Assembly: GCA_030065815.1 (NCBI GenBank)
Contig: JASJCU010000025.1
Coordinates: 1-46,307 of the forward strand
DNA length: 46,307 nt
From: Gammaproteobacteria bacterium
GTDB taxonomy: Bacteria > Pseudomonadota > Gammaproteobacteria > Chromatiales > Chromatiaceae
Direction of reading: 5' to 3'
Shown here in pieces: positions 11,706 through 43,127 of this stretch. The notes under the pieces were generated by a model. The model was not told the origin of the DNA, searched no databases, and saw nothing but the letters and a program-made list of their open reading frames with translations. Positions within the stretch are counted from its first letter, which is position 1. Each line of letters starts with the position of its first letter. The translations under genes and the position numbers were made by a program.

Positions 11706-11955
11706 CTAGCCTGCATAGTGCATGAGCTGCGTAGAGCCTGCGGCCTTCGCAGCCGGCGTGGAGCGGGGGTCATAGCCGTCGCCATGGCTTGGGTGACGGC
11801 CAAGCCACAGCGAGCGAGCAAACGCAGGAATCCGAATGCGACGACACCGGGCACAGACGACGATTTCCGGACTTGCAGAAAAACTGACGGAGACCACGTT
11901 CGTATCCGATGCCTGTAGAGTCGGCGTCGTTCGGCTCATGCAGCAGGCAGGCTAG
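11706..11955. mobile_element. MITE-like element, copy 1 (250 bp)
   Basis: Terminal inverted repeats CTAGCCTGCATAGTGCATG at 11706 and the reverse complement of CTAGCCTGCCTGCTGCATG at 11955 match at 19 of 22 outer positions. The interior shares blocks with the element at 43142-43399: GCCTGCGGC-ttcgcagcc, GCCATGGCTTG with GGCCAAGCCAC (a hairpin), and GTCGTTCGGCTCATGCA. No transposase is encoded. A minus-strand frame runs from an ATG in one terminal repeat (11939) to a TAG in the other (11706) and encodes 77 residues starting MSRTTPTLQASD. It sits at the boundary where the yebC-nudB pair is broken and ends 25 bp before the next gene. Confidence 0.82.
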
Positions 11956-37098: not shown

Positions 37099-40000
37099 TC
37101 AATGAAAATCACGCGACTCGACGTTCAACCCGTCGAGCAGGTCGCTGTGATCCTCGAGGCGGCGACAGAGCAGGTGCTGCACGCCCTCGGAACGCTGGAT
37201 CTCGGCGACCACGCCGAGCAGCTGCGCGCCGAGCAACACGCGGCGCTGGCGCTCGGCCAGGTCGGCCCAGATCAGCAGGTTAAGGCCGCCGTACTCGTCC
37301 TCGAGCGTGACGAAGATCGCGCGGCCGTTGCCGGGGCGCTGGCGGATCAGCACGATGCCGGCCGCGCGCACGATCTCGCCCGGCGCGCGTGCGGCGACCT
37401 CGGCCGACGACAGCAGCTCGCGCTCGCGCAGGCGCGCACGGATCAGCGCCAGCGGGTGTTCGTGCAGGGTCAGGCCGAGCTGCGCATAGTCGGCCAGCAC
37501 AGTCTGCCCCGCTGTCGGCGCCCGCAGGCGCGGCCGCCGCTCGCTGAAGCGGTCGAGGCGGGCCAGCGCCGGCGCCTCCTCGACCCCGGCGACATCCCAG
37601 GCCGCGAGGTGGCGATGACCGGCCAGCTCGCGCAAGGCATCGGCCGCGGCCAGCGCCTTGAGGTCGGCACGGTTGAGCTGTGCACGGCATGCCAGGTCCT
37701 GCACCGTTGAAAATCCGCCTGCACCACGTACCGTGGCGATTCGTGATGCTGCGGACTCAGACAGGCCCCGAATCATGCACAGACCAAGGCGCATGGCAGG
37801 CGGATTTTCAGGGCCGAGGGCCGAGGGCCGAGGGCCGAGGGGTGCACTGAACTGCGCTCCACGCTCCCCGGCCCGCGGCCCCTGGCCCGCGGCCCGCCCC
37901 CCTCTGCCCTTTGCCCTCTGCCCTCCGCCCTTCTTTGCCCTCTGCCCTCCGCCCTCCAAGGTGCAATCCCAGTCGCTGTGATTGACATCGGCCGGGCGCA
38001 CCGCGACGCCGTGCTCGCGCGCATCGCGCACCAGCTGTGCCGGCGCGTAGAAGCCCATCGGCTGGCTGTTGATCAGCGCCGCGCAGAATGCCGCCGGGTG
38101 GTAATGCTTGAGCCAGGCCGAGACGTAGACCAGCAGTGCGAAGCTGGCGGAATGCGACTCGGGAAAACCGTAATCGCCGAAACCGAGGATCTGCCGGTAG
38201 ACCCGCTCGGCGAACTCGCGCTGGTAGCCGCGCGCCTGCATGCCGTCCATCAGCTTCTTCTCGTACGGCTCGAGCCCGCCGCGCCGCTTCCACGCGGCCA
38301 TCGCACGCCGCAGCTGGTCGGCCTCGCCGGGCGTGAACCCGGCCGCGACCATCGCCAGCTTGATCACCTGCTCCTGGAAGATCGGCACGCCGAGCGTGCG
38401 TTCGAGCACGCCGCGCACCTCCTCCGACGGGTAGTCGACTGCCTCCTTGCCCTGCCGCCGGCGCAGGTAGGGGTGCACCATGTCGCCCTGGATCGGTCCC
38501 GGTCGCACGATCGCGACCTCGATCACGAGGTCGTAGAAACACTCGGGCCGCAGGCGCGGCAGCATCGACATCTGCGCGCGCGACTCGATCTGGAACACGC
38601 CGATCGTGTCGGCCTGCTGGATCATCGCGTAGACCTCGGGATCTTCGGGCGGGATGTTCGCAAGCGTTAACGCTTGCTCAGGGCCGAGGGCCAAGGGCCG
38701 AGGGCCGAGGTATCCATTTCCTTTGCCCTGCGCCCTCCGCCCTCTGCCCTGGAAGCCATTGACGAGCGCCAGCGCCCGCCGTATCGCCGACAACATGCCG
38801 AGCGCCAACACGTCGACCTTGAGCAATCCCAAGGCTTCCAGATCGTCCTTCTCCCACTGGATCACGGTGCGCTCGGGCATCGACGCGTTCTCGATCGGCA
38901 CCAGCTCGTCGAGACGGCCGGCGGCGATCACGAAGCCACCGACATGCTGCGACAGGTGGCGCGGGAAACCGCGCAGCGTGTTGACCAGCACGCGCAGGCG
39001 CCGCAGGGTCGGGTTGTGCGGATCGAAACCGGCCTCGGCGAGGTGCTGCGGCGTGATCTCGCGGTAGCGGCGCCAGGCCGCGACCGCGGCGACCAGCGCC
39101 TCGATCTGTTCCAGGCCCAAGCCCAACGCCTTACCGACGTCGCGCACCGCGCTGCGCGTGCGGTAGGTGATCACGGTCGCGGCCAGCGCGGCGCGCTCGC
39201 GACCGTACTTGCGGTAGACGTACTGGATCACCTCCTCGCGCCGCTGGTGCTCGAAGTCGACGTCGATGTCCGGCGGCTCGTTGCGCTCGCGCGAGATGAA
39301 GCGCTCGAACAGCAGGTTCATGCGCGACGGGTCGACCTCGGTGATGCCGAGGCAATAGCACACCGCCGAGTTGGCCGCCGAGCCGCGCCCCTGGCACAGG
39401 ATGTCGCGCTCGCGGGCGAAGCGGACCATGTCCCAGACGGTCAGGAAATAGGCCGCGTAGTCGAGCTCGGCGATCAGCGCCAGCTCGTGCTCGACCTGTG
39501 CCCGCACCTTGTCCGGGCAGCCGTCCGGCCAGCGCCGCGCCATGCCCTGCGCGGTCAGCCGGCGCAGCCAGGCCTGCGGCGTCAGGCCGGCCGGCGTGAC
39601 GTCGTCCGGGTACTGGTAGCGCAGCTCGTCGAGCGAGAAGCTGCAGCGTCGTGCGACGCGCACGCTCTCGGCGAGCAGCGCCGCCGGGTACAGGGCCGCC
39701 AGGTCGTCGCGCGGACGCAGGTGGCGCTCGCCGTTCGACAGCCGCGCATGGCCGAGCTCGGCGACCGGCGTGTTCAAGCGGATCGCGCTCAGCAGGTCCT
39801 GCAGCGCACGTCGGCCGCGCACGTGCATGTGCACGTCGCCGGTGGCCACGCAGCGCAGACCGGTACGCGCCGCCAGGCGTCCGGCACGTTGCAGGCAGGC
39901 AGCGTCGCGCCCGTCGCGCAGCAGTTCGACCGCCAGCCAGGCACGCCCGGCGAAGTGTGCGGCCAGCCAGTCGGCATCCGCGGCGTCACCGTCGGGACCG

Positions 40001-40812
40001 ACCGGCAGCAGTACCAGGCAGTCCGCGAGTGCACCCTCCAGGTCGCGCCGCTGCAGCCGGTAGCTGCCTTTGTCGGCATGCCGCCGGGCATGCGTGATCA
40101 GCCGGCACAGCTGGCCGTAACCGGCCCGGTTGGCCGCCAGCAGCACCAGGCGCGGGCCGTCGTCCAGGCACACCTCGCTGCCGACGATCAGCGCCAGGCC
40201 GATCGCCTTGGCCTTCTGGTGCGCACGCACGACACCCGAGACCGAGCACTCGTCGGTGATCGCCAGCGCCGCGTAGCCGAGCGCGTGCGCGCGCTCGACC
40301 AGTTCCTCCGGGTGCGACGCGCCGCGCAGGAAGGTGTAGTTACTCAGGCAGTGCAGCTCGGCGTAGGCCGAGCTGCGCGGGCCGCGAGCCAGGGGCCGGG
40401 GGCCGGGATCAGGGCCGAGGGCCGAGGGCCGAGGGACGAGGGGGTGCGTAGTCTGCTCGCCGACGGTGGTTGGCGATGGCGCCGGTGGATGTTTCTTTTG
40501 CGACGCGGAGGGCGCAGAGAAGCACAGAGAGCGCAGAGTTTCTGATGGCCGTTTGCAAAGGTTTTCTCTGCGACCTCTGCGCTTCTCTGCGCACTCTGCG
40601 TCCCCCTGGTACGGACCGCGGGCCGCGGGCCGCGGGCCGGGATCAGGGACGAGGGCCGAGGGCCGAGGGACGAGGGGGTGCGTAGTCTGCTCGCCGACGG
40701 TGGCTGACGGAGACGACATCCCTGCAGGCCTGCTGGCCCGCGGCCCGTGGCCCCCGGCCCGGCACCCTCTGCCCTCTGCCCTCTGCCCTCGACCCCTAAA
40801 CGAACAGTCCAT
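37099..40812 (-). CDS. dnaE2: DnaE2/ImuC, error-prone polymerase III alpha subunit, with repeat-encoded insertions
   Basis: The frame is 1237 residues. The DnaE2 core begins AYAELHCLSNYTFLRGASHP at about residue 149 (40368) with a PHP domain. Polymerase acidic motifs are PPDIDVDFEHQRREE (about 515) and KVDVLALGMLSAIRRAL (about 666). The C-terminal OB fold holds RAAGIVLIRQRPGNG. Two repeat-derived peptides interrupt the core: about residues 687-712, after the third catalytic Asp, and about 951-1001, before AMRLGLCMIRGLSE. No ATG, GTG or TTG start lies next to the core, so I use the ATG at 40812, overlapping the imuB stop by 17 bp; that adds about 147 repeat-encoded residues. Frame stays open throughout. 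Confidence 0.85.
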   Translation of the reverse strand: MDCSFRGRGQRAEGRGCRAGGHGPRASRPAGMSSPSATVGEQTTHPLVPRPSALVPDPGPRPAARGPYQGDAECAEKRRGRRENLCKRPSETLRSLCFSAPSASQKKHPPAPSPTTVGEQTTHPLVPRPSALGPDPGPRPLARGPRSSAYAELHCLSNYTFLRGASHPEELVERAHALGYAALAITDECSVSGVVRAHQKAKAIGLALIVGSEVCLDDGPRLVLLAANRAGYGQLCRLITHARRHADKGSYRLQRRDLEGALADCLVLLPVGPDGDAADADWLAAHFAGRAWLAVELLRDGRDAACLQRAGRLAARTGLRCVATGDVHMHVRGRRALQDLLSAIRLNTPVAELGHARLSNGERHLRPRDDLAALYPAALLAESVRVARRCSFSLDELRYQYPDDVTPAGLTPQAWLRRLTAQGMARRWPDGCPDKVRAQVEHELALIAELDYAAYFLTVWDMVRFARERDILCQGRGSAANSAVCYCLGITEVDPSRMNLLFERFISRERNEPPDIDVDFEHQRREEVIQYVYRKYGRERAALAATVITYRTRSAVRDVGKALGLGLEQIEALVAAVAAWRRYREITPQHLAEAGFDPHNPTLRRLRVLVNTLRGFPRHLSQHVGGFVIAAGRLDELVPIENASMPERTVIQWEKDDLEALGLLKVDVLALGMLSAIRRALALVNGFQGRGRRAQGKGNGYLGPRPLALGPEQALTLANIPPEDPEVYAMIQQADTIGVFQIESRAQMSMLPRLRPECFYDLVIEVAIVRPGPIQGDMVHPYLRRRQGKEAVDYPSEEVRGVLERTLGVPIFQEQVIKLAMVAAGFTPGEADQLRRAMAAWKRRGGLEPYEKKLMDGMQARGYQREFAERVYRQILGFGDYGFPESHSASFALLVYVSAWLKHYHPAAFCAALINSQPMGFYAPAQLVRDAREHGVAVRPADVNHSDWDCTLEGGGQRAKKGGGQRAKGRGGRAAGQGPRAGERGAQFSAPLGPRPSALGPENPPAMRLGLCMIRGLSESAASRIATVRGAGGFSTVQDLACRAQLNRADLKALAAADALRELAGHRHLAAWDVAGVEEAPALARLDRFSERRPRLRAPTAGQTVLADYAQLGLTLHEHPLALIRARLRERELLSSAEVAARAPGEIVRAAGIVLIRQRPGNGRAIFVTLEDEYGGLNLLIWADLAERQRRVLLGAQLLGVVAEIQRSEGVQHLLCRRLEDHSDLLDGLNVESRDFH
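37811..37961. repeat. Heptamer element HE1 inside dnaE2
   Basis: The left arm (37811-37841) is tandem GGGCCGA units. A middle part has GGCCCGCGGCCC-type sequence, and the right arm (about 37901-37961) has CTGCCCT-like units. Read as protein it encodes about 50 residues of the GQRAKGR / LGPRPSA type inside DnaE2. Its left edge abuts the arm GCAGGCGGATTTTCA (37796-37810), a perfect inverted copy of TGAAAATCCGCCTGC at 37708-37722. Confidence 0.85.
38660..38677. repeat. Perfect 18-bp palindrome abutting HE2
   Basis: GCAAGCGTTAACGCTTGC, within dnaE2 coding for A-L-T-L-A. It lies 3 bp from the left edge of the heptamer element HE2. TTA is a rare Leu codon in this GC-rich window, consistent with one half being a new inverted copy of the other. 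Confidence 0.85.
38681..38752. repeat. Heptamer element HE2 inside dnaE2 (compact)
   Basis: About 72 bp: left arm of four GGGCCGA-like units, a short AT-richer centre (TATCCATTTCCTTT) and right arm of CTGCCCT-like units. It encodes about 25 residues in frame between ALALVNGFQ and ALTLANIPPEDP of DnaE2, a position where homologues have only a short loop. This is the shortest complete copy and best defines the unit. Confidence 0.85.
40353..40376. repeat. Perfect stem-loop at the dnaE2 core start
   Basis: Arms GCAGCTCGGC and GCCGAGCTGC with loop GTAG. On the minus strand one arm is the native dnaE2 codons for A-E-L and part of H; the other encodes R-S-S-A where the ancestral start codon is expected. 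It marks the left edge of composite element HE3. Confidence 0.82.
40377..40795. repeat. Composite heptamer element HE3 at the imuB-dnaE2 junction
   Basis: It contains two AGGGCCG arms lying in a 72-bp direct repeat (40401-40472 and 40635-40706, 70 of 72 identical, spacing 234 bp), a nested CTCTGCG inverted pair (40499-40543 and 40558-40603), GGCCGCGGGCC-type tracts and a terminal CTGCCCT arm (40761-40795). It lies between the imuB stop and the dnaE2 core and has no in-frame stop in the dnaE2 frame. Confidence 0.82.
40499..40603. repeat. CTCTGCG inverted element nested in HE3
   Basis: The left arm GGCGCAGAGAAGCACAGAGA and right arm TCTCTGCGACCTCTGCGC are imperfect reverse complements separated by about 15 bp. 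It belongs to the same family as the element between tolR and tolQ, 37 kb away. Confidence 0.78.
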
Positions 40813-42238
40813 GCAGATACCACCCGCCACCGCGGCGGTCACGGAACACCCACAGCCGCTCGCCGGCCGGGCTGTGGGCGATGAAGTAGTCACGGGTGAT
40901 GTCGCCGCCGTCCCACCAGCCGGCCTCGATGCGCTCCGGCAGGTTCTCCAGGCGCAGTGCCCCGCCGTAGTCCGGCACGCCGCCGCAATCGCGCAGCGGG
41001 CGCGGGCTGGCCAGCAGCCACGGCGGCTGCGACAGACCCTGGCGGTGCGCACCGTCGGGCAGCGCGTCGCCGTCGCCCGGCCGGCACAGCTGCCAGGCAC
41101 GCTCGGGGCGGTGATCGGGCAGGCAGCGCAGGCCGCGCACCCGCTGCTCGCCAAGGCGGTTGCTGAGGCGTTCGAGCAGCGCGTGGTCGCGCGGTCCGGG
41201 ATTGTCGTCGAGCAGCGCCAGGCTGTGCTCGGCGAAGGCCTGCCAGTCGTCGACGCGCAGGCCGATCGCGACGACCGGCGCCGGCAATACCAGGCGCTCG
41301 ATACGCTCGCGGAACACCTCGAGCATATGATCGGCATCGCGGCTCGGGTCGAGCAGGCCCTGGTCGAACGCCGTCGGCGGTCGGCCGTCGCGGTGCTGCA
41401 GCGTCCACTGCAGGCGCTGCGCGCCGCCGCCGAGGCCGCGCAGGAAACCGCACAGCGCGACCATCAAACGGCGCGCCGGGAACACCAGCGCCGTGCTCTG
41501 GCCGATCTCGCCGAGCAGCTCGACGGTCTGTGCGAAGTGCCGCGGCGGTGACCACTCGTCACGCGGGTCCGCGGCATGGCCGAGCAGGCGATCGAGCAGC
41601 GCCGGCAGCGCCGGGCCGCTGCGCCGCGCCAGCTCGACACGCGGCAGCCCGAGCACGTCGCCGATGGTGTGCAGGCCGACATGCCGGACCAGCTCGCGCA
41701 CCGCGCGTTCGCGGGTCAGGCTGGCCAGTGGTAGCGGCGCGACCGCGCTGCGCAGCGCCTGTGCATCGCTCACCTCGCAGCCCGGACGGCTGCGCGCCAG
41801 CAGGCCGGCCGCGGTCGGCGTCGGCGCCAGCGCATGCCGGGCGCTGTAGCCGACCTGCTGCAGCTCGTGTTGCACGCGCTGCAGCAGCCCCGGCAGGCCC
41901 CCGAACAGGCGCCGGCTGGCGCCGACCTCGAGCAGCAACAGCGATGGCTCGAACGCGATCCGCGCGCTGAACTGGTAGGCCCAGGCCGCCAGCTCGTCGA
42001 GTGCCTGCCGCTCACGCCCGGGGTCACGGCGCTGCACGACCAGGTCGGCACACAGCGTCAGCGCCGCCGGCAGCGCCAGGCCCGGCCGTACACCGTAGGC
42101 CTGCGCCGCGCTGTTGCAGCGGCTGACCTGCTCACGCCCGGCCTGTGATTCGACGACCACCAGCGCGCCGGCCTGCTGGCGGACACGCGTGAACACCTCG
42201 AGCGGCAGCTGCGGGAAATACAGGGCGAGCCAGAGCAT
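40796..42238 (-). CDS. imuB: ImuB, catalytically inactive Y-family polymerase homologue
   Basis: The product is 480 residues. It begins MLWLALYFPQLPLEVFTRVR, in which the catalytic acidic residue of active Y-family polymerases is missing. The palm and finger segments follow (AGALVVVESQAGREQVSRCN, then SLLLLEVGASRRLFGGLPG), with the thumb HhH and little-finger regions and a C-terminal extension ending WYLHGLFV, typical of ImuB. ImuB is the hub that connects the beta clamp, ImuA and DnaE2 in damage-induced mutagenesis. The start codon overlaps a perfect 20-bp palindrome. Confidence 0.93.
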   Translation of the reverse strand: MLWLALYFPQLPLEVFTRVRQQAGALVVVESQAGREQVSRCNSAAQAYGVRPGLALPAALTLCADLVVQRRDPGRERQALDELAAWAYQFSARIAFEPSLLLLEVGASRRLFGGLPGLLQRVQHELQQVGYSARHALAPTPTAAGLLARSRPGCEVSDAQALRSAVAPLPLASLTRERAVRELVRHVGLHTIGDVLGLPRVELARRSGPALPALLDRLLGHAADPRDEWSPPRHFAQTVELLGEIGQSTALVFPARRLMVALCGFLRGLGGGAQRLQWTLQHRDGRPPTAFDQGLLDPSRDADHMLEVFRERIERLVLPAPVVAIGLRVDDWQAFAEHSLALLDDNPGPRDHALLERLSNRLGEQRVRGLRCLPDHRPERAWQLCRPGDGDALPDGAHRQGLSQPPWLLASPRPLRDCGGVPDYGGALRLENLPERIEAGWWDGGDITRDYFIAHSPAGERLWVFRDRRGGGWYLHGLFV

Positions 42239-42257
42239 GCCGGGTCATGACCCGGCA
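42238..42257. repeat. Perfect 20-bp palindrome at the imuB start
   Basis: TGCCGGGTCATGACCCGGCA. It overlaps the first base of the imuB ATG and abuts the left arm of heptamer element HE4. A hairpin here would cover the ribosome-binding region of imuB. Confidence 0.85.
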
Positions 42258-42505
42258 GGGCCGAGGGCCGAGGGCCGAGGGCCGAGGGTGTGGCCCAGCG
42301 GGCCGCGGGCCATGGGTCGCGGGTCAACGTAGCAGGCGACCGCTAAGCCTTCACCCCTTGCAGACCGGCAAATGCCGTACGCCCGTCGAGAAACAGCCAT
42401 CCGGACCCGACACTCACCGCCACCGCTACGCATCGGCCCCGCCCTCGCTCCTCGCTCCCCGATCCTCGGCCCTCCGCCCTCTGCCCTCGGCCCTCAACCC
42501 TGTGC
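42258..42505. repeat. Heptamer element HE4 spanning the imuA-imuB junction
   Basis: The left arm (42258-42295) is GGGCCGA units, followed by GGGCCGCGGGCCATGGG. About 130 bp of unrelated sequence containing the imuA stop comes next, then the right arm (about 42462-42505) with CGGCCCT/CTGCCCT units. It replaces the close imuA-imuB junction by a 187-bp gap and supplies the ImuA C-terminal residues. No other gene lies in the gap. Confidence 0.8.
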
Positions 42506-43127
42506 CGACAGGCACGATGCACGACCCACCCGCCCAGCCACCGCGCCGCTTCAGCACCTCGACCTCGAGCCCCAGCGGCGCCGGGCGCACGCGCAGGCGC
42601 AGCGCGGCCGACGAGCCCTGGCCGGCGGTACGCAGCGGGCGGAACAACAGCGCGCTGCAGTCGCCCTGCTCGGCGGCCAGCTGCAGGCGGCGCAGCTGGG
42701 CGGTCTGTGGGCCTTTGCCGCCGGCCTCGCCCGGCCACGCCAGCAGCAGGCTGCTGGCACCGGACTTGAGCACCTGCTCGGCCGCCCACAGCGCCTGCTC
42801 GTCGGACACCTCGCGGATCAGCAGCAGCCGCCCGACGCGCACGCCGCGCGCGGCCAGTGCCGGGGCATAGGGCACGTGCGGCGGCGCGACCCAGGTGATC
42901 CAGCGCGCCTCGGCACTGAGCCGCGCGATCAATGGCAGCAGCAACGACAGGCCCTGGTGGGAATCGCTGAGCAGCTCGCTGAGCGCCGCGCGCGGCCAGC
43001 CGCCGGCGAGCAGCTCGTCGAGCACCGGCCAACCGCTGGACAGCACCCGTCCGGCCGGCACCACGGCACGCCGTCCCTGCCAGAGGTCGCCGTTGCGTTT
43101 CAGATCGTCGAGACTGATTACCTGCAT
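42426..43127 (-). CDS. imuA: ImuA, mutasome accessory protein, with repeat-encoded tail
   Basis: The product is 233 residues. The RecA/SulA-like family pattern is visible: RVLSSGWPVLDELLAGGWPR, ALSELLSDSHQGLSLLLPLI and the closing LEVEVLKRRGGWAGGSCIVP. After that point the sequence becomes GLRAEGRGRRAEDRGARSEG, encoded by the right arm of heptamer element HE4, so the C-terminus has been replaced or extended. ImuA binds ImuB and RecA in related systems. The upstream 14 bp before MITE copy 2 contain only a weak ribosome site, AGG, partly supplied by the element end. Confidence 0.9.
   Translation of the reverse strand: MQVISLDDLKRNGDLWQGRRAVVPAGRVLSSGWPVLDELLAGGWPRAALSELLSDSHQGLSLLLPLIARLSAEARWITWVAPPHVPYAPALAARGVRVGRLLLIREVSDEQALWAAEQVLKSGASSLLLAWPGEAGGKGPQTAQLRRLQLAAEQGDCSALLFRPLRTAGQGSSAALRLRVRPAPLGLEVEVLKRRGGWAGGSCIVPVGTGLRAEGRGRRAEDRGARSEGGADA

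Follow-up and report, generated by a model that had tools for sequence, protein, structure and literature searches.

Hairpins at the borders of G-rich heptamer arrays

The short hairpins that lie between host genes and G-rich heptamer arrays are best read as products of template-switch (fold-back) synthesis at the array boundaries, with a probability that we put at roughly two in three. This reading is supported by the adjacency of hairpins to arrays, their enrichment there, the recency of the arm distal to the host gene, the presence of species-specific hairpins at the same edge, and recurrence in an unrelated lineage.

The window, which is the whole analysed stretch of 46,307 nucleotides, is contig 147 of a 3.89-Mb gammaproteobacterial assembly that is 98.9% complete. 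By dnaE2, most of its nearest relatives are MAGs carrying the label Chromatiaceae or Chromatiales. Elements in this genome are convergent pairs of heptamer arrays, with the G-rich strand running inward from each host side and a unit of AGGGNNN (mainly GGGCCGA, GGGCAGA and GGGCCAA), and occupy intergenic positions or tolerant dnaE2 loops. Counting edges that have four or more GGG tracts, this genome has 40, the congener G005 has 8 and every other congener 0-2; edges were defined by pattern, most assemblies are drafts with arrays often at contig ends, and very long arrays may be truncated. Contigs C34, C70, C78, C82, C100 and C149 terminate within long heptamer arrays, indicating that the assembly breaks at arrays.

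Paired arrays enclose filler DNA that is unique at nearly all sites, so the element is no bodied transposon; a conserved body is ruled out apart from a few exceptions, namely a weak common motif (L045a, L045b, L048a and L051), an array similarity at L050 and an internal duplication in HE3. The motif common to four fillers (L045:6500-6593 and 11770-11811, L048:101-184, L051:8286-8348) resembles TTGACA-N17-ACAATC and is possibly promoter-like. The arrays carry the motif GGGN4 x4 of a predicted quadruplex. We further note that in many arrays AGGG is kept every 7 bases with the other three positions varying from unit to unit (L048, L049, L057, the right array of HE2 and loci L242-L246 of genome G008), which is unlike the product of simple slippage. 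Arrays in G008 are of GGNNCGA and CTTAGGG types.

The four elements of the window

The initial annotation had described a perfect inverted repeat at the left edge of each of four elements, HE1 to HE4, and all four repeats are present. They lie in and beside two minus-strand reading frames, one (37099-41337) containing dnaE2, an error-prone DNA polymerase that matches NF004225 from about residue 323 and carries HE1 and HE2 as in-frame insertions, and the other (40796-42238) encoding imuB, identified by its IMS/Y-family domain.

The HE1 repeat has 15-bp arms and a 73-nt loop. Its array-distant arm (37708-37722) falls on dnaE2 codons A-G-G-F-S, with homologous codons in L072, and the arm abutting the array (37796-37810) on codons N-P-P-A. 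This repeat is of a different class, long-looped and with both arms within dnaE2. It is followed by a plus-strand (GGGCCGA)n array (37811-37841) and by right-hand arrays of the GGGCAGA type on the minus strand (37872-37954). At HE2 lies the 18-bp perfect palindrome GCAAGCGTTAACGCTTGC (38660-38677), formed by dnaE2 codons Q-A-L-T-L-A. Its left (38681-38704, plus) and right (38726-38749, minus) arrays are predicted to pair into a single long stem (DNA fold z=-5.1), the base of which touches the small hairpin in the predicted fold. The dnaE2 frame stays open through the HE1 and HE2 arrays (37811-37954 and 38681-38749), and the G005 orthologue of HE1 (L233:537-655) also reads open by eye; HE1 sits inside the HHH_6 domain and HE2 just ahead of the finger domain. 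Across species the same dnaE2 loops hold different inserts (38658-38768; L072 7598-7750; L084 8167-8328 and 9030-9290, with CCTTTGTG-type repeats in L084), which suggests that such loops are hot spots for insertion or tolerate it.

In HE3, the hairpin GCAGCTCGGC-GTAG-GCCGAGCTGC (40353-40376) has 10-bp arms (40353-40362 and 40367-40376) around a 4-nt loop, where the first arm is formed by conserved N-terminal codons of dnaE2 and the second is a lineage-specific inverted copy. The left array (40398-40442, plus) has a degenerate start from about 40379, and a second forward array (40620-40676, plus) partly duplicates the left part of HE3; a piece of the left end of HE3 is also duplicated at 40677-40709. 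The right array (40737-40795, minus) abuts the imuB stop codon without a hairpin. Nested in HE3 is an unrelated octamer-type palindrome (40502-40602; 37-nt arms, 86% paired) built of CTCTGCG-type repeats. HE4 carries the 20-bp palindrome TGCCGGGTCATGACCCGGCA (42238-42257; arms 42238-42247 and 42248-42257) at the imuB start edge; its reported overlap with the start codon exists, at one base only. The left arrays of HE4 (42258-42323, plus) and its right array (42470-42500, minus) are followed by the short hairpin GTGCC-TGTC-GGCAC (42502-42515, minus strand, 5-bp arms).

Hairpins are concentrated at array edges

Hairpins with perfect arms of at least 9 bp, a loop of at most 12 and an end at most 8 bp from the array edge are found at 7 of 51 array edges, compared with 0.28% of random positions. 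At gene termini without arrays, arms of at least 9 bp occur at 0.37% of positions (binomial p=9e-10 against the 7 of 51), and this matched control rules out chance occurrence at gene ends. A 15-bp inverted repeat of the HE1 kind was met at none of 40,000 random window positions. The judgement of the initial annotation that the repeats are unlikely by chance is borne out. Hairpin frequency is highest 0-3 bp from the first GGG and returns to background at greater distances: arms of at least 7 bp ending 0-3 bp from the edge occur at 0.028 per bp in this genome versus about 0.002 further out, and at 0.0625 per bp in the congeners. These edge-based tests are preferred to a stop-codon-only test, which was too weak because its strict array definition missed degenerate arrays (L047:2502 and the ftsY site of G005) and short or overlapping genes.

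The claim that every element abuts a repeat at the same, left edge does not extend to the rest of the genome. Within 3 bp of the edge, arms of at least 6 bp are present at 11 of 62 edges of this genome and arms of at least 7 bp at 7 of 62; overall, a short-loop hairpin adjoins roughly 15-20% of the array edges in the genome, on either side of the element. Right edges have hairpins too (11 bp at L041, 5 bp at HE4), and some elements have them at both edges (at ftsE/ftsY in two species and at HE4 in three). With convergent arrays and no polarity to the element, a "left edge" cannot be meaningfully defined. Three edges (L045 right at 11836, L047 left at 2614 and L048 right at 216) adjoin near-identical terminator hairpins AACCCCGCTCGAA..TTCGAGCGGGGTT, separated from the arrays by a T tract ending in TTTCA.

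Comparison with array-free orthologues

The initial annotation had left open whether insertion targets hairpins or makes an inverted copy of host DNA, and had proposed an alignment with element-free orthologues. We compared the ftsE start, the ftsY stop, the gene end at L050, the dnaE2 start (HE3) and the imuB start (HE4) with array-free orthologues, the orthologous-edge sequences being entered by hand. At all five edges, those for which such orthologues were available, the distal arm is without a match in the array-free orthologues, and the longest inverted repeat there is 5 bp, with usually none. Array-bearing edges have inverted repeats of 4-11 bp at 14 of 16 (Mann-Whitney p=1e-5, among congeners that are phylogenetically non-independent). 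In most array-bearing orthologues a hairpin occupies that edge too, yet it differs, having been copied from the same gene end.

At the ftsE start this genome has TGATCACGG-cttca-CCGTGATCA, and at the ftsY stop CGAATAGCGCC-ttt-GGCGCTATTCG. The G005 hairpin CGAGTAGC-gtt-GCTACTCG shows a compensated GAA to GAG change, in that the synonymous GAA/GAG difference at ftsY in the proximal arm is accompanied by a matching change in the distal arm. The ftsE and ftsY hairpins are not present in the array-free G003, G004, G006, G007 and G008, and G002 has arrays at these positions and no hairpins. At the dnaE2 start this genome has copied GCAGCTCGGC (with the loop gtag); G005 has GGCGTAG-tccacag-CTACGCC, drawn from these codons but in a different register, and no hairpin is found in L071-L074 and L084. 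Similarly, the imuB start bears three different hairpins in this genome, G002 and L070, and none in the array-free L071, L073 and L084. The hairpins of G002 and L070 at the right edge of HE4 also differ from that of this genome, and at the imuA-side end the fold-back lies at different bases of CATCGTGCC in this genome and G002. For the site at L045:11704 no orthologue was found among the congeners.

Two sites in dnaE2 show a related pattern. The Q-A-L-T-L-A stretch at HE2 is common to L070, whose version is a quasi-palindrome broken by three mismatches; with 3 synonymous differences from L070, this genome has the perfect palindrome. At HE1, L072/G002 has inverted-repeat arms ATCCGCCCACC/GGTGGGCGGAT of 11 bp with a loop of 71, and this genome differs from L072 by two compensatory changes.

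Since, at the five edges compared, the distal arm is absent without an array and the hairpins mostly differ between species, that arm appears from these alignments to be a self-templated inverted copy and the host-side arm old gene sequence, and hairpin targeting is rejected. The fold-back copying that the initial annotation had envisaged is thus supported for HE3 and the ftsE, ftsY and L050 edges, and HE4 is consistent with it; HE2 instead points to the perfecting of an existing quasi-palindrome and HE1 to the homogenisation of a longer-range inverted repeat. The sites show the marks of template switching: an adjacent short-loop reverse-complement copy, its absence from ancestral-state orthologues, and perfected palindromes or multi-base compensatory changes (HE2 against L070, HE1 against L072, ftsY of this genome against G005).

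Recurrence in an unrelated genome

A class-wide pattern search for GGGAATC arrays led to one genome, the unrelated gammaproteobacterium G387, whose arrays are of this Xanthomonas type. Here a hairpin score of at least 9 is found 0-1 bp from 4 of 16 edges, compared with 0.27% of random positions (p=9e-8; 1.57 Mb). In two of the four edge hairpins the arms are formed by gene-end codons, and the loop contains or adjoins the stop codon: in one, GGCTTCGGCGGCT-gaga-AGCCGCCGAAGCC leads directly into GGGAATC, and the second lies at the end of a guaB-like gene (NYRLD*).

Proposed mechanism and alternatives

It is established in E. coli that a stalled polymerase can switch template to the strand it is making (PMC7202029), and template switching is known both to generate hairpins and to make imperfect ones perfect (PMC8794818). 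At the array boundary, a nascent 3' end would repeatedly leave its template, fold back via a few complementary bases, copy about 5-15 nt of adjacent host sequence and then re-enter the array. The outcome would be a hairpin exactly between host and array with a new inverted copy as its array-side arm, and the same process could perfect quasi-palindromes, as at HE2, and homogenise longer-range inverted repeats, as at HE1. The process would be polymerase fold-back, probably caused by stalling at the base of arrays folded into a long stem or a G-quadruplex; the HE2 stem base touching the hairpin, together with the quadruplex motifs, makes a stall exactly at the edge plausible. Against fold-back synthesis stands the roughly 80% of array edges without a hairpin. 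The initial annotation had regarded other copies lacking an adjacent repeat as contrary to its proposal, and most edges are of this kind. It had also assigned the copying to insertion itself; hairpin-less arrays and differing hairpins fit a fold-back after the array at least equally, and on our preferred reading the array would have come first and the hairpin second.

An alternative in which array and hairpin arise together is improbable, though it accounts for several features. A broken 3' end would fold back, copy the host terminus and reopen, followed by G-rich heptamer extension from both sides and joining of the ends with filler DNA. The inward G-rich strands on both host sides are as 3' additions would be, the fillers are unique sequence, the fold-back copies stop exactly at the array, and the hairpins at both edges of several elements could mean one event at both ends. 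However, hairpin-less arrays are the majority, elements at the same position in related species bear different hairpins, no repeat-writing reverse transcriptase was found in the genome, and a closed hairpin end has no evident route to receive an array. The fuller version, in which both broken 3' ends would have folded back and telomere-like AGGGNNN been added by a process independent of reverse transcriptase, and this in more than one unrelated bacterial lineage, is a little less probable still.

It is very unlikely that selection has kept the hairpins as RNA or DNA features, such as terminators or insulators, and that they adjoin arrays by coincidence. Their gene-end location and the covariation at ftsE and ftsY between this genome and G005 would suit such a role, but they are found at start-codon and stop edges alike, T tracts are missing from most of them, their register at a given gene varies with the species, and they are not seen without an array. 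A known RNA family was rejected, as Rfam gave only two weak matches, to plant miRNA precursors, far below cut-offs and in the nested HE3 palindrome.

Scarcely credible is a mobile element of the IS200/IS605, RAYT-driven REP or group IIC intron type inserting beside pre-existing hairpins: three edges do adjoin terminator-like hairpins with T tracts (L045 right, L047 left, L048 right) and the HE2 quasi-palindrome existed beforehand, but array-free orthologues are hairpin-less at the five comparable edges, the elements have no common body, and neither Y1 transposase (PF01797) nor reverse transcriptase (PF00078) is found in this 98.9% complete genome, with control genomes positive, which makes the known hairpin-seeking systems unlikely and rules out such a transposase or intron.

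Comparison with known systems

Rehm et al. (2015) described quadruplex-forming heptamers, GGGAATC and GGGGA(C/T)T, in Xanthomonas and Nostoc, in convergent pairs with the G strand directed away from the gene (PMC4692102). The portion of that work considered here agrees with our arrays in the period of 7, the GGG tracts, the tandem arrangement in convergent intergenic pairs, the G strand leading away from a gene at most 50 bp distant, and positions mostly common to related species; the unit sequences differ. Edge hairpins or inverted gene-end copies are not described in that portion, nor is an origin tested. G-rich heptamer arrays are reported from several bacterial groups, and we found no account of their origin; heptamer arrays and template switching are each known, and we found no report of their coupling. 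Self-templated gene-end copies at array borders, made independently by different species and across two unrelated lineages, provide a physical clue to that origin and a one-step route for perfect hairpins at gene ends and within genes such as dnaE2. As the arrays appear to border polymerase fold-back sites, their origin and mutagenic effect become testable through strain comparison and E. coli quasipalindrome reporters.

REP/REPIN sequences with RAYT (PMC8266576, PMC3733652) are likewise small, intergenic, palindromic and high-copy. The hairpins here, in contrast, are host-derived and mutually unrelated, differing in sequence from site to site, with no conserved palindrome family bearing a tetranucleotide tag and no Y1 transposase in the genome. 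Close parallels are also found in quasipalindrome and template-switch mutations, in which short self-templated inverted copies make or perfect hairpins and compensatory changes arise in one event (Klaric et al., 2020, PMC7202029; Monttinen and Loytynoja, 2022, PMC8794818). Mutations of this kind occur at replication and become more frequent when replication is blocked or exonucleases are lost. The difference here is that the events are concentrated at the borders of G-rich heptamer arrays.
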